NCBI GenBank assembly: GCA_024275485.1
Contig: JAJRZA010000050.1
Location: forward strand, 1 to 64,000
Length of the DNA stretch: 64,000 nt
Origin: Candidatus Krumholzibacteriota bacterium
Lineage (GTDB): Bacteria > Krumholzibacteriota > Krumholzibacteriia > LZORAL124-64-63
Direction: 5' to 3'
Shown here piece after piece: positions 33,254 through 37,571 of this stretch (position 1 is its first letter; each line of letters begins with the position of its first letter). The notes under the pieces were generated by a model. It did no database searches. It was not told where the DNA came from and saw nothing but the letters and a program-made list of their open reading frames with translations. A program made the position numbers and the translations under genes.

Positions 33254-34177
33254 TCAACACGGTCGGTTTTTCAGGCGATCACGGGCCACATCTCCCAACC
33301 GGCTGCCGAAGTACATCACCAGCCAGCCGAGGAGCAGTCCGGCAAATACGTCGACCACATAATGATACCGGTTGTAAACGGTGCTCATGCAAAGGAGCAC
33401 GAAAATCGTTGTCATCCACCAACGATGCCGTGGGAAAAGTTTCCAGGTGTGCCACCAGGGAACCATGGAAGCGGCTACATGACTGCTGGGGAAGGCAGCC
33501 CCCAGAATGGCTCCATTTTCGTGAATATGTCGCATGATGTCAGTGAAAATCCAACCGCCCACATCCACATATCCTGCCTTGAAATACTTGGGGCCCCAGG
33601 CGGGGAACAGCGTGTAGAGCGTATAGCAGATGAGCATGGTGGTGCCGAGATCGCGAACGAAAGCCCGCACCGCATCCCACCGCTGGTCATCGGCCAGACC
33701 CTTGGCCCGCAAGGCAAGGGCGATAAATGAAACAGCAAGGAAGTAGTAGGAAAAATAGGCAAACTCCATCAACTCGTGAAACCAGGCCCAAGGCCATACC
33801 CGCGACCATTCCAGGCTGGGTTGGAAACCGAATATTGCCTGTTCAATTTTGATCAGGGCCGGATCAAGGCTGTTCTCGAATTCAAAAAATACCAATCCCA
33901 GGTATTCCATTTCGCCATAGAAAAATGGGAAGAGCAGCGGCAGGTAAATTTCCCCCAGCAGTCGCAATACAAAGTGACGGCTGCAACGCAGCATGGGTGG
34001 GAGGAACCAAACCCCCAGGGATAGACCAGCATGCACAGCCATGTTAACCCATGGTTTGGGAGAAACGCCCGGTCGCAGGAAGGGATAAAAGGCACTGACC
34101 AGAAGATAGACCACCACCCAGCGGTCCATGTTCATGCGCCGGAGGGAAAGTTCAACAAGGGTTCGTCGCCAGGTCAA
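33254..34177 (-). CDS. PAP2/AUR1-like membrane phosphatase or phosphotransferase
   Basis: The 307-residue protein has about six membrane helices and the PAP2 active-site pieces AAFPSSHVAAS and YNRYHYVVDVFAG (H-x3-D), plus LFPAWGPKYF, which resembles the inositolphosphotransferase (AUR1) branch more than classic PAP2. It is the last gene of the ceramide cluster, so it may add or remove a phosphorylated head group on ceramide. The TTG at 34177 overlaps the upstream TGA (TTGA) and has AGGA 6 bases before; the next candidate is ATG 34135. The substrate is inference. Confidence 0.82.
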   Translation of the reverse strand: MTWRRTLVELSLRRMNMDRWVVVYLLVSAFYPFLRPGVSPKPWVNMAVHAGLSLGVWFLPPMLRCSRHFVLRLLGEIYLPLLFPFFYGEMEYLGLVFFEFENSLDPALIKIEQAIFGFQPSLEWSRVWPWAWFHELMEFAYFSYYFLAVSFIALALRAKGLADDQRWDAVRAFVRDLGTTMLICYTLYTLFPAWGPKYFKAGYVDVGGWIFTDIMRHIHENGAILGAAFPSSHVAASMVPWWHTWKLFPRHRWWMTTIFVLLCMSTVYNRYHYVVDVFAGLLLGWLVMYFGSRLGDVARDRLKNRPC

Positions 34178-35181
34178 AGCCAATCCTGTTCCTTGAAGAA
34201 GTCCATGGTGTTGGCAAATCCGGTGAGAGCCGAGTATTTGGGTTGCCAACCGGTTGTGGTGCTCAAAAGGGAACCGTCACAAACCCAGCCGGAGGTTTCC
34301 AGGTCCCTGATCCGGTCCGGGTTCAGGACGGGAGACGAGATGGCTCGGCCGCGACCCAGCAAAGAGCTACTGATTTTCAACAACACCAACGGCACCTGGA
34401 GAGTTCGGATTTTTTTCCCCGTGGTCGAACTCAGGATATCGGCCAGCTCCTGCCAATTGTATCCGGTGTGGAGGTCATCCACAAAATATGTTCCTGTAGC
34501 CTGGTCACACTGCATCAGGGCCACGGCGGCGGCGGCGGCATCCCAACCATGAACCAGACTCAATCCGGTCATTGATTTTCCCAGTCTGGCAGTGATGCCT
34601 CTGGTTGCTGCCTTGAAAAGGGGCAGGAATTCCTTGTCACGGGGGCCATAAAGTGAGGGCGGACGCAATATGGCACGGCGGAAACTCCATTCGGACCCGT
34701 TTACGGCCAACTCTGCGGCCAATTTGCTGCGCCCGTAGGCGGTGATGGGAGCTGGGGAGTTGCTTTCCACGGCCGGGTTATCCAGGCCTGCAGGTCCGTG
34801 GGCGGCCATGCTGGATATAAGTACAAAAGCAGGGTCGTCGCACTGCTCTTTCCAGGTCAGCTCGGCTCGGGCGAGCAAATTTTCGGTTGTTCGAACATTG
34901 GCACGTTGGTACTGCTGCTCACCGGTAGCAGTGACCAAGCCGGCACAGTGGATCAATCCGCTGCTGCCGGACAAAAATGAATCGCAGGATTTTGCATTCT
35001 CAAGATCCACTATAGTCGTCTCAATGTCTTTGCCTTCTAGCCAGCGAAGATTGCTCGTTTGCCGGATAGAGGCCCGAACGGCAAAGCCCTTGGCCAGCAG
35101 AATGTCGGCAACATGACTGCCCAAAAACCCCGAGGCCCCGGTCAGGGCGATCACGGGTTTGCTTCCGGAATGCCCGCTCAT
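34174..35181 (-). CDS. cerR: NAD-dependent epimerase/reductase, candidate ceramide reductase
   Basis: The 335-residue extended SDR has the GASGFLGSHVADIL nucleotide loop, VDLENAKS strand and the YGRSK catalytic Tyr/Lys. In Caulobacter the CerR enzyme of this superfamily reduces 3-oxo-ceramide to dihydroceramide. Assignment here rests on the neighbours: it is coupled by ATGA to the GNAT gene, which follows serine palmitoyltransferase. By sequence alone it could be any NAD-dependent epimerase/dehydratase. Confidence 0.78.
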   Translation of the reverse strand: MSGHSGSKPVIALTGASGFLGSHVADILLAKGFAVRASIRQTSNLRWLEGKDIETTIVDLENAKSCDSFLSGSSGLIHCAGLVTATGEQQYQRANVRTTENLLARAELTWKEQCDDPAFVLISSMAAHGPAGLDNPAVESNSPAPITAYGRSKLAAELAVNGSEWSFRRAILRPPSLYGPRDKEFLPLFKAATRGITARLGKSMTGLSLVHGWDAAAAAVALMQCDQATGTYFVDDLHTGYNWQELADILSSTTGKKIRTLQVPLVLLKISSSLLGRGRAISSPVLNPDRIRDLETSGWVCDGSLLSTTTGWQPKYSALTGFANTMDFFKEQDWL

Positions 35182-36302
35182 GCCAGGGGCATCTCGTATA
35201 TGCGATAAGTTTTGTAGACCTGGGCGCCATAACTCTCAAGAATGCGATTCATGGTCCTGTTGTCATCCAGGATCCAGGACAATTCTCCTGAGGTGATGCC
35301 TTTGGCAAACGTGGCCTGCATGGCGGTGTAGACCAGGGCCAGGTCCACACCCTTTCTTCGATACTCGGGCAGTACACCCATCAACGGCATGCGTGCATAG
35401 TTGATATGGCGTTTGGCGAGCAGAAATTTCAGCCAACCGAAAGGATACATTTTTCCCTTCATGGGTTGAGTGGCCTGATTGAAATCCGGGAGGGTCAGGG
35501 CGAAACCGATGGGTTTATCGTCCATCTCAGCTATCAGGACAAATTCCGGGTCAACCATGCTTTTCATATCCTTGGCGCTATAGGCAAAATCTTCGTCATC
35601 CATGGGGATGAAGCCCCAGTTTTCACTCCAGCTGCCGTTGTAAAGGGCCCGAATCAGGCTGGCTTCCTCCTGGAAGTTTTTCATGTCCAAGGGACGAATC
35701 TTCAGGCCGGGTAGGTTGATGATGCGGTCAATAAAACGTTGAATTTTCTCAGGCAGGATGCCGTCGGTCTCCAAGTGCCAGGCCAGAAGATCCTTGGCTT
35801 GGCTCATGCCGAATTCCTCAAAGTTTGTGGGGTAGTATTCCGGATTGTAGGGCATGCCCACCACCGGACGGTTGCGCAGGCCTTCAATCTGCACACCAAA
35901 CCAGTCATGATTGGAGGTGAAACAACCAGGACCGCGCATGGTGGTCATGCCTCTGGCGGCAATCCAGTCGCAGGCTGTTTGCAACAGCAGGCCGGCCAGC
36001 TGGGGGTTGTCGTCAGCTTCATAGAAACCGAAGAACCCTACTTTTTCATGGTGATGGTCGTTGTGGTACTTGTCCACCGCAGTGGCGATGCGCCCGACCA
36101 CTGAGCCGGCGTTGTCGCGAGCCACCCAGAGTTCGGCTTCGGCATGGTTGAAAAAAGGGTTCTTCTGACGATCGAAGAAGTGTTTCAAATCGTCCAGCAG
36201 GGGGTAGACATAGTTTGGATCGTCATGGTAAATGTGGTAGGGAAGTTGCAGGAAATCATCAAGCCCCTGTTTGTTTTGGACCTTGGAAATGGTGAACGAC
36301 AT
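35178..36302 (-). CDS. bcerS: GNAT-fold N-acyltransferase, candidate bacterial ceramide synthase
   Basis: The 374-residue protein has a GNAT acyl-CoA site near the C-terminus (GVLPEYRRKGVDLALV) and a long N-terminal half with FNHAEAELWVARDN, MRGPGCFTSNHDWFG and PYNPEYYP. This large GNAT type matches what is known of bCerS of Caulobacter, which acylates 3-ketosphinganine. AGGAGG 6 bases before ATG 36302 fixes the start. It lies 84 bp after the serine palmitoyltransferase gene, across a hairpin with a T-run. Function is inferred from family and context. Confidence 0.8.
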   Translation of the reverse strand: MSFTISKVQNKQGLDDFLQLPYHIYHDDPNYVYPLLDDLKHFFDRQKNPFFNHAEAELWVARDNAGSVVGRIATAVDKYHNDHHHEKVGFFGFYEADDNPQLAGLLLQTACDWIAARGMTTMRGPGCFTSNHDWFGVQIEGLRNRPVVGMPYNPEYYPTNFEEFGMSQAKDLLAWHLETDGILPEKIQRFIDRIINLPGLKIRPLDMKNFQEEASLIRALYNGSWSENWGFIPMDDEDFAYSAKDMKSMVDPEFVLIAEMDDKPIGFALTLPDFNQATQPMKGKMYPFGWLKFLLAKRHINYARMPLMGVLPEYRRKGVDLALVYTAMQATFAKGITSGELSWILDDNRTMNRILESYGAQVYKTYRIYEMPLA

Positions 36303-36326
36303 GTTGCCTCCTGAATCCTTCTTTTG

Positions 36327-36354
36327 CAAAAATGGGCGGCCCATTGGACCGCCC
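36327..36354 (-). terminator. Hairpin with T-run between spt and bcerS
   Basis: Read on the - strand, GGGCGGTCC-AAT-GGGCCGCCC (36354-36334) forms a 9-bp stem with one G-U pair and a 3-base loop, followed by ATTTTTGC. It is a textbook intrinsic terminator inside a same-strand gene pair, 25 bases before the bcerS start codon. It may attenuate transcription rather than end it, because no promoter fits in the remaining space. Confidence 0.7.
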
Positions 36355-36386
36355 GAAATTCCCACTGACCGCAGAAAGGGCGGAGT

Positions 36387-37571
36387 CTAGCTCTCCACAA
36401 TTTCCAGCTCGCGGCCCACACGGGCCATGATGTCCATGGCTTTGTGGATCTCATCTTCGGTGTGGGTGGCCATCAAACTCAATCGGATCAGGGCGTTGCC
36501 TTTTTCCACCGCCGGGCTGACCACCGGGTTTACAAAAACACCTTCTTCGGCCATGCGGCTGCACATCTGGAAGGCAGCCATGTCGTCGCCGACCACCGCC
36601 GGGATGATGGGTGTCTCGCTGGGACCAGTATCGAAGCCGGCTTCCTTCAGACGCTCGCGCATGAGGTCGTTGTTGTGCCAGAGGGCATCGTGCCGCCAGG
36701 TTTCTTCAATCATCACATCAATTGCCGCAGATACCGAAGCCACCGATGCGGGGGGCATGCTGGCCGAGAACATCAGGGCCCGGCTGTGGTGCTGGATGAA
36801 ATGCATGACATCTTCGTCGCCTGCAACAAAGCCACCCACGGAGGCAAGAGACTTGCTGAAGGTTCCCATAATCAGACCAGCTTCGTCGGTGAGCCCGAAG
36901 TGGTTGCAGGTGCCACGGCCGTGGTCGCCCAATACGCCAACACCATGGGCGTCGTCCACCATCAGGAAAGCATCGTATTTTTGGCAAAGTTTGACGATTT
37001 CCGGGAGTTTGGCAATGTCGCCCTCCATGGAAAAAACACCGTCGACGATGACCAGCTTGTTGGAATCATTCTCGCTTTTGAGGACCAGCTCCAGGTTTTC
37101 CATGTCGTTGTGACGGAATTTGCGCACATCGGCAAAGCTGAGGCGGGCGCCGTCGATGATTGAAGCATGATCGGTGCGATCGACGATGATGGTTTCCTTG
37201 CGGGTCACCAAAGAGCTCAGCACTCCCTGGTTGACCATGAAACCGGTGGAGAAAACCAGGGCTTTTTCTTTGCCCACCAGATTGGCCAGCTTTTCTTCCA
37301 GCTCGATATGAATGTCCAGGGTTCCATTGAGGAAGCGGCTGCCCGCACAACCAGTGCCGTATTTTGCCACAGCGGCGGAGGCGGCTTCCTTCACTTTGGG
37401 ATGGTTGGTCAAACCCAGGTAGTTGTTGCTACCCAACATGATGATTTCCCGCCCTTGATACTTGACGGTATTTTCCTGGGCAGATTCAATTACTCGAAAA
37501 TAATTGTAGAAATCAGCAGCCATCAAATCCTTGGCTGTCGTGAAGTTGTTGACCTTGTCCAGCAGACCCAT
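36387..37571 (-). CDS. spt: Serine palmitoyltransferase (alpha-oxoamine synthase family)
   Basis: This PLP enzyme would join serine with a fatty acyl thioester to give 3-ketosphinganine, the first step to sphingolipids. Lys240 in GTFSKSLASVGG is the PLP lysine; DDAHGVGVLG and DRTDHASIIDG are cofactor contacts. LGSNNYLGLTNHPKV and GTGCAGSRFLNGTLDIH match Bacteroidetes-type SPT closely. Kbl and BioF belong to the same family, but the N-terminal FYNYFRVIES start and the downstream genes favour SPT. ATG 37571 is preferred (394 residues) over upstream codons. Confidence 0.87.
   Translation of the reverse strand: MGLLDKVNNFTTAKDLMAADFYNYFRVIESAQENTVKYQGREIIMLGSNNYLGLTNHPKVKEAASAAVAKYGTGCAGSRFLNGTLDIHIELEEKLANLVGKEKALVFSTGFMVNQGVLSSLVTRKETIIVDRTDHASIIDGARLSFADVRKFRHNDMENLELVLKSENDSNKLVIVDGVFSMEGDIAKLPEIVKLCQKYDAFLMVDDAHGVGVLGDHGRGTCNHFGLTDEAGLIMGTFSKSLASVGGFVAGDEDVMHFIQHHSRALMFSASMPPASVASVSAAIDVMIEETWRHDALWHNNDLMRERLKEAGFDTGPSETPIIPAVVGDDMAAFQMCSRMAEEGVFVNPVVSPAVEKGNALIRLSLMATHTEDEIHKAMDIMARVGRELEIVES

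Follow-up and report, generated by a model that had tools for sequence, protein, structure and literature searches.

Ceramide is the core of sphingolipids, and in yeast its head group is put on by Aur1, the fungal inositol-phosphorylceramide synthase. Among bacteria, a close comparison for the locus described here is offered by the ceramide genes of Caulobacter and Escherichia coli BL21 (aasR, cerR/epi, acpR, spt and bcerS/aca = yghO), which encode a serine palmitoyltransferase (SPT), an N-acyltransferase and an SDR of the same families. The BL21 gene yghO (ECD_02850) is the counterpart of Caulobacter CC_1154 (bCerS), and ECD_02852 is that of CC_1164 (CerR) (PMC9386255); the order of acylation and reduction is an open question in the field (PMC11087976). 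In Caulobacter, a ceramide kinase route leads to phosphoglycerate head groups (PMC11324152). Bacteroides thetaiotaomicron makes phosphoinositol dihydroceramide with the AUR1 homologue BT_1522, encoded within the inositol-lipid genes BT_1522-1526 (PMC8791184, PMC9246714). Ceramide producers have been predicted in 38 Black Sea phyla and in about 40 phyla in all (PMC11334938), and the head groups of these predicted producers are mostly unknown.

The first-pass annotation of the window, the whole analysed stretch of 64,000 nucleotides, had placed a compact ceramide biosynthesis cluster of four genes between positions 33,254 and 37,571. The cluster is present at this place, and a check of the reading frames found all four open and intact on the minus strand, running from 37571 to 33254:

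36387..37571, minus strand: spt, serine palmitoyltransferase of the Bacteroidota (CFB) type, ATG start, 394 aa
36334..36354, minus strand: terminator-like hairpin GGGCGGTCC-AAT-GGGCCGCCC followed by ATTTTTG, between spt and bcerS
35178..36302, minus strand: bcerS-like gene for a tandem-GNAT N-acyltransferase (ceramide synthase, YghO/aca family), ATG start, 374 aa
34174..35181, minus strand: cerR-like gene for an atypical SDR, an NAD-dependent epimerase-type reductase, ATG start, 335 aa
33254..34177, minus strand: gene for a PAP2_3 membrane enzyme resembling AUR1, predicted to transfer a head group to ceramide, TTG start, 307 aa

Three of the four genes are coupled by 4-bp overlaps as had been described, with ATGA at 35178-35181 joining the GNAT and SDR genes and TTGA at 34174-34177 joining the SDR and PAP2 genes; spt does not overlap the GNAT gene and is separated from it by 84 nt. 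The N-terminus that follows the TTG start of the PAP2 gene (MTWRR...) is kept in relatives. The observations that bear on the function of the locus are its gene order, homology, active-site residues, cross-genome linkage and predicted folds, and with a probability of roughly 85% the first three genes form a dedicated ceramide pathway. In such a pathway, SPT would join serine and a fatty acyl thioester to give 3-keto-sphinganine, the tandem-GNAT protein would perform the N-acylation and the SDR would reduce the 3-keto group, in either order, yielding dihydroceramide. At the membrane, the AUR1-like PAP2 protein would then use a His-Asp / His relay to transfer a phospho-head group from a phospholipid to ceramide. 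All of these functions are predicted, and we infer the substrates, the reaction order, the head group and the actual production of lipid.

The presence of sphingolipid genes in this little-studied lineage is borne out, but is no longer new for such phyla (PMC11334938); the route to ceramide is already known from many bacteria, to which the locus adds another well-supported example of limited novelty. It is less expected that the gene for the head-group enzyme is so closely linked to the ceramide genes. The proposed equivalence with the Caulobacter enzyme set is supported for the three protein families, which were identified via the E. coli BL21 orthologues rather than the Caulobacter sequences (35%, 35% and 31% identity for SPT, GNAT and SDR, respectively). 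It does not extend to the rest of the system, as the window SPT is of the Bacteroidota type, no dedicated AcpR, AasR or LptF/LptG-like genes lie beside the cluster, and the order is spt-bcerS-cerR followed by the AUR1-like gene. The GNAT loci of Sphingomonas, Roseomonas and Diaphorobacter found in a plasmid search contain genes for SPT, an acyl carrier protein and LptF/LptG, a set similar to that of Caulobacter-type loci (PMC11324152). Plasmid clusters of Rubrobacter and Streptomyces have the same three families directly adjacent and in the window's order, SPT-GNAT-epimerase, but are without a PAP2 gene and carry LTA synthase family and condensation domain genes downstream instead. Bacteroides thetaiotaomicron shares the SPT subgroup of the window, and BT_1522 is the bacterial precedent for the AUR1-like gene; in Bacteroides, however, the ceramide and head-group genes do not form one cluster, whereas in the window the AUR1-like gene overlaps cerR.

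Related genomes contain 19 cluster loci, of which 14 have SPT-GNAT-SDR-PAP2 in the same order, and because this order recurs so often the arrangement is beyond chance. Four of the other five loci are cut by contig ends. The one real exception (G001, from the same genus; L036 5443-7848) keeps the SPT and GNAT genes, but an 801-aa ORF occupies the position of SDR and PAP2, and no strong PAP2 homologue was found elsewhere in its genome. The GNAT gene occurs in 20 of the 38 related genomes; 19 of these have an SPT scoring 499 bits or more, and in the 20th the GNAT gene lies at a contig end. In the 18 genomes lacking the GNAT, no SPT scores above 380 bits. PAP2 is matched strongly (E < 1e-40) in 19 of the 20 GNAT genomes and in a single genome without the GNAT (G020); in G021, whose cluster contig is cut, the strong match lies only at another place. 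Almost all GNAT carriers belong to one family, so that much of this co-occurrence reflects shared descent, but the linkage is repeated in a second family (G034) and in distant phyla. A scan of named genomes, covering the best 80 GNAT loci of a list limited in length so that the fractions are not frequencies, found within about 6 kb an SPT gene at 54, an SDR gene at 42 and a PAP2 homologue at 17 of these loci, which come from many phyla. The same four-gene order is present in an Acidobacterium (L071), an Eisenbacterium (L101) and a Gemmatimonadales MAG (L136), and the order in Solibacterales is SDR-PAP2-GNAT-SPT. A PAP2 gene following the ceramide genes is thereby observed in the window's family (G001 excepted), the second family, Acidobacteriota, Eisenbacteria and Gemmatimonadota.

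The literature searched, which excludes most subscription journals, contained no report of a close and recurrent linkage of AUR1-like and ceramide genes for bacteria other than Bacteroidota, and no priority is claimed. It can be proposed tentatively, at somewhat less than even odds, that several phyla other than Bacteroidota share, as a unit of ancient origin, a complete ceramide-to-phosphosphingolipid operon in which the gene for an AUR1-type head-group transferase overlaps that of the reductase. In that case, the envelopes of uncultured lineages would commonly contain inositol-phosphoceramide or a related phosphosphingolipid. The linked head-group enzyme provides a specific and testable prediction for such lineages, namely a phosphosphingolipid that is perhaps inositol-phosphoceramide, and bears on the distribution of eukaryotic-looking AUR1 enzymes among bacteria. 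Two loci of Cloacimonadota (L123 5995-7986 and L134 5995-8091) have a bCerS-like GNAT gene followed directly by an AUR1-like PAP2 gene, with no SPT gene within 6 kb. As SPT without bCerS nearby is described for the same phylum (PMC11334938), its ceramide genes may be split.

For the fourth gene product, the proposed PAP2/AUR1-like character is borne out by the fold search. Pfam assigns the protein to PAP2_3 (63.9 bits), and its invariant FPSxH (H233) and HYxxD (H272, D276) motifs supply the C-terminal catalytic His, His and Asp. When the predicted model (pLDDT 86.8) was searched with Foldseek, the best two matches among PDB structures were fungal Aur1 (9ivc, E=5e-5, TMq 0.60) and an inositol-phosphorylceramide synthase (9vj4, E=9e-5, TMq 0.61), followed by a PAP2 phosphatase at 0.01 and, in fourth place, human SMSr (sphingomyelin-synthase-related, with ceramide) at 0.011. 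The protein most likely transfers a head group to ceramide, with the odds moderately in favor of this function. An ordinary lipid phosphate phosphatase acting on ceramide-phosphate, PA or undecaprenyl-PP, and merely sitting in the operon, would also account for the PAP2_3 and PAP2 domains, which are common to phosphatases, and YodM is the best PDB match of the sequence profile (2e-5). Plain phosphatases (YodM/PgpB) outscore AUR1 by sequence in the PAP2 core only, the YodM match being confined to the last 70 positions versus 180 positions (104-283) for the weak match to AUR1 (E = 4e-4). By fold, the two AUR1 structures come ahead of the phosphatases, and several phyla repeat the linkage to ceramide genes, all of which makes a phosphatase rather unlikely here.

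With head-group transfer as the preferred function, phosphatidylinositol may be the donor, since the genome encodes an inositol-phosphate synthase (MIPS, 316 bits) together with an enzyme resembling PI-phosphate synthase (126 bits against a cut-off of 170). Both genes lie away from the cluster, in contrast to the Bacteroides inositol-lipid genes BT_1522-1526, and most if not all of the 38 genomes have them. Because genomes without the cluster carry them too, the inositol genes are only permissive and were rejected as a specific sign of inositol-phosphoceramide. Contig C18 of the same genome also contains a compact trio of genes (L148 234-2960), whose products could synthesize a CDP-activated head group and put it to use: a PLP enzyme similar to HisC, a CDP-alcohol phosphotransferase and an NTP transferase.

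The resemblance of the second gene product to bCerS is supported by a full-length match to YghO of E. coli BL21 (E=1e-79, with 35% identity across 377 columns) and by its occurrence in SPT loci of many phyla. Full-length relatives with 25-39% identity were found in the plasmid search, many of them beside SPT, and the protein is 32-39% identical to GNATs in the SPT loci of Sphingomonas, Roseomonas, Rubrobacter and Streptomyces. SPT adjoins the GNAT gene here and in most loci. These comparisons support membership in the bCerS (CC_1154 / YghO) family, assigned via the named orthologue and not the Caulobacter sequence. Pfam detects only a GNAT domain, and a sequence search of the PDB returned nothing useful. 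The predicted model (pLDDT 94.8) has a tandem GNAT fold; as its fold search matched only generic tandem GNATs, it backs the fold and not the substrate. In Myxococcota, two bCerS-family GNAT paralogues lie close together at five loci (L072, L077, L106, L089 and L135).

The third gene product, for which a CerR-like function had been proposed, matches the CerR orthologue of E. coli BL21, ECD_02852 (31% identity, E=2e-41), and conserves the TGxxGFxG motif, S124 and YxxxK (Y149, K153). The only Pfam domain seen is Epimerase (80 bits). Membership in the CerR (CC_1164) family is thus likewise supported through the named orthologue and not the Caulobacter protein itself. Caulobacter CerR is periplasmic; the N-terminus of the window SDR, MSGHSGSKPVIALTGASG, has no obvious hydrophobic signal, as judged by eye only.

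The first gene product is predicted from sequence comparisons to condense serine with a long-chain acyl thioester. Its best NCBIfam model is SerpalmtaseCFB (582.7 bits), with the Kbl-type glycine C-acetyltransferase model at 410.7; the NF047600 SerpalmtaseCFB equivalog cut-off of 640 is above this score and is reached by no relative either. The best solved structure in a PDB sequence search is the Sphingobacterium SPT 3a2b (E=6e-133), and identity to the E. coli BL21 SPT is 35% (9e-82). In a quick IQ-TREE phylogeny of 84 sequences, with SH-aLRT as the only measure of support, the protein grouped with SPT as had been claimed, in a set that includes 3a2b and SPTs from Parabacteroides and elsewhere (98 SH-aLRT), while Kbl, BioF and HemA were on the opposite side of a branch with support of 99. 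The PLP lysine K240 and the catalytic His, Asp and Arg residues (H135, D206, H209 and R363) are all present. Ala270 and Ser365 occur in all complete SPTs of the alignment, that of the window included, while the eight non-SPTs (Kbl/BioF/HemA) have Thr or Asn at position 270 and Gln, Thr, Asn or Ala at position 365.

Use of alanine, glycine or cysteate by this enzyme would lead to 1-deoxyceramides or sulfonolipids in place of ordinary ceramides. The Black Sea, in which clusters of this kind are present, is rich in 1-deoxyceramides (PMC11334938), and the window SPT has Gly (G210) directly after the catalytic His, where the S. multivorum SPT has Ser. Residue 210, however, is G, S or A among GNAT-adjacent SPTs, with Gly also in the Parabacteroides SPT, and SPT 3a2b scores 447 bits versus 242 for 28eh, a cysteate acyltransferase of solved structure, leaving an alternative amino acid improbable. 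A Kbl or BioF of primary metabolism with unrelated neighbors, which would belong to the same alpha-oxoamine synthase superfamily as SPT, has practically no chance of being the first gene product, as it is ruled out by the tree together with A270 and S365, the linkage of SPT to its neighbors is conserved, and the genome carries its own Kbl as a second superfamily member on another contig (C79, L002 / L146; grouping with Kbl at 100 SH-aLRT and 57% identical to E. coli Kbl).

For spt and the genes that follow it, equal expression of all four should not be assumed, because the terminator-like hairpin, which the first-pass annotation had not mentioned, separates spt from the GNAT gene. Its stem has 9 pairs, 8 of them G-C, and is followed by the ATTTTTG tail, features that argue against simple co-expression of the four genes. 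For the four hairpins tested, folding energies beat those of shuffled sequences only modestly (z -1.4 to -2.2), and a leaky terminator is therefore a lead and not a finding. Absent from other relatives, comparable hairpins of different sequence with T-rich tails occupy the same gap in eight loci (L033, L034, L035, L038, L039, L041, L042 and L043).
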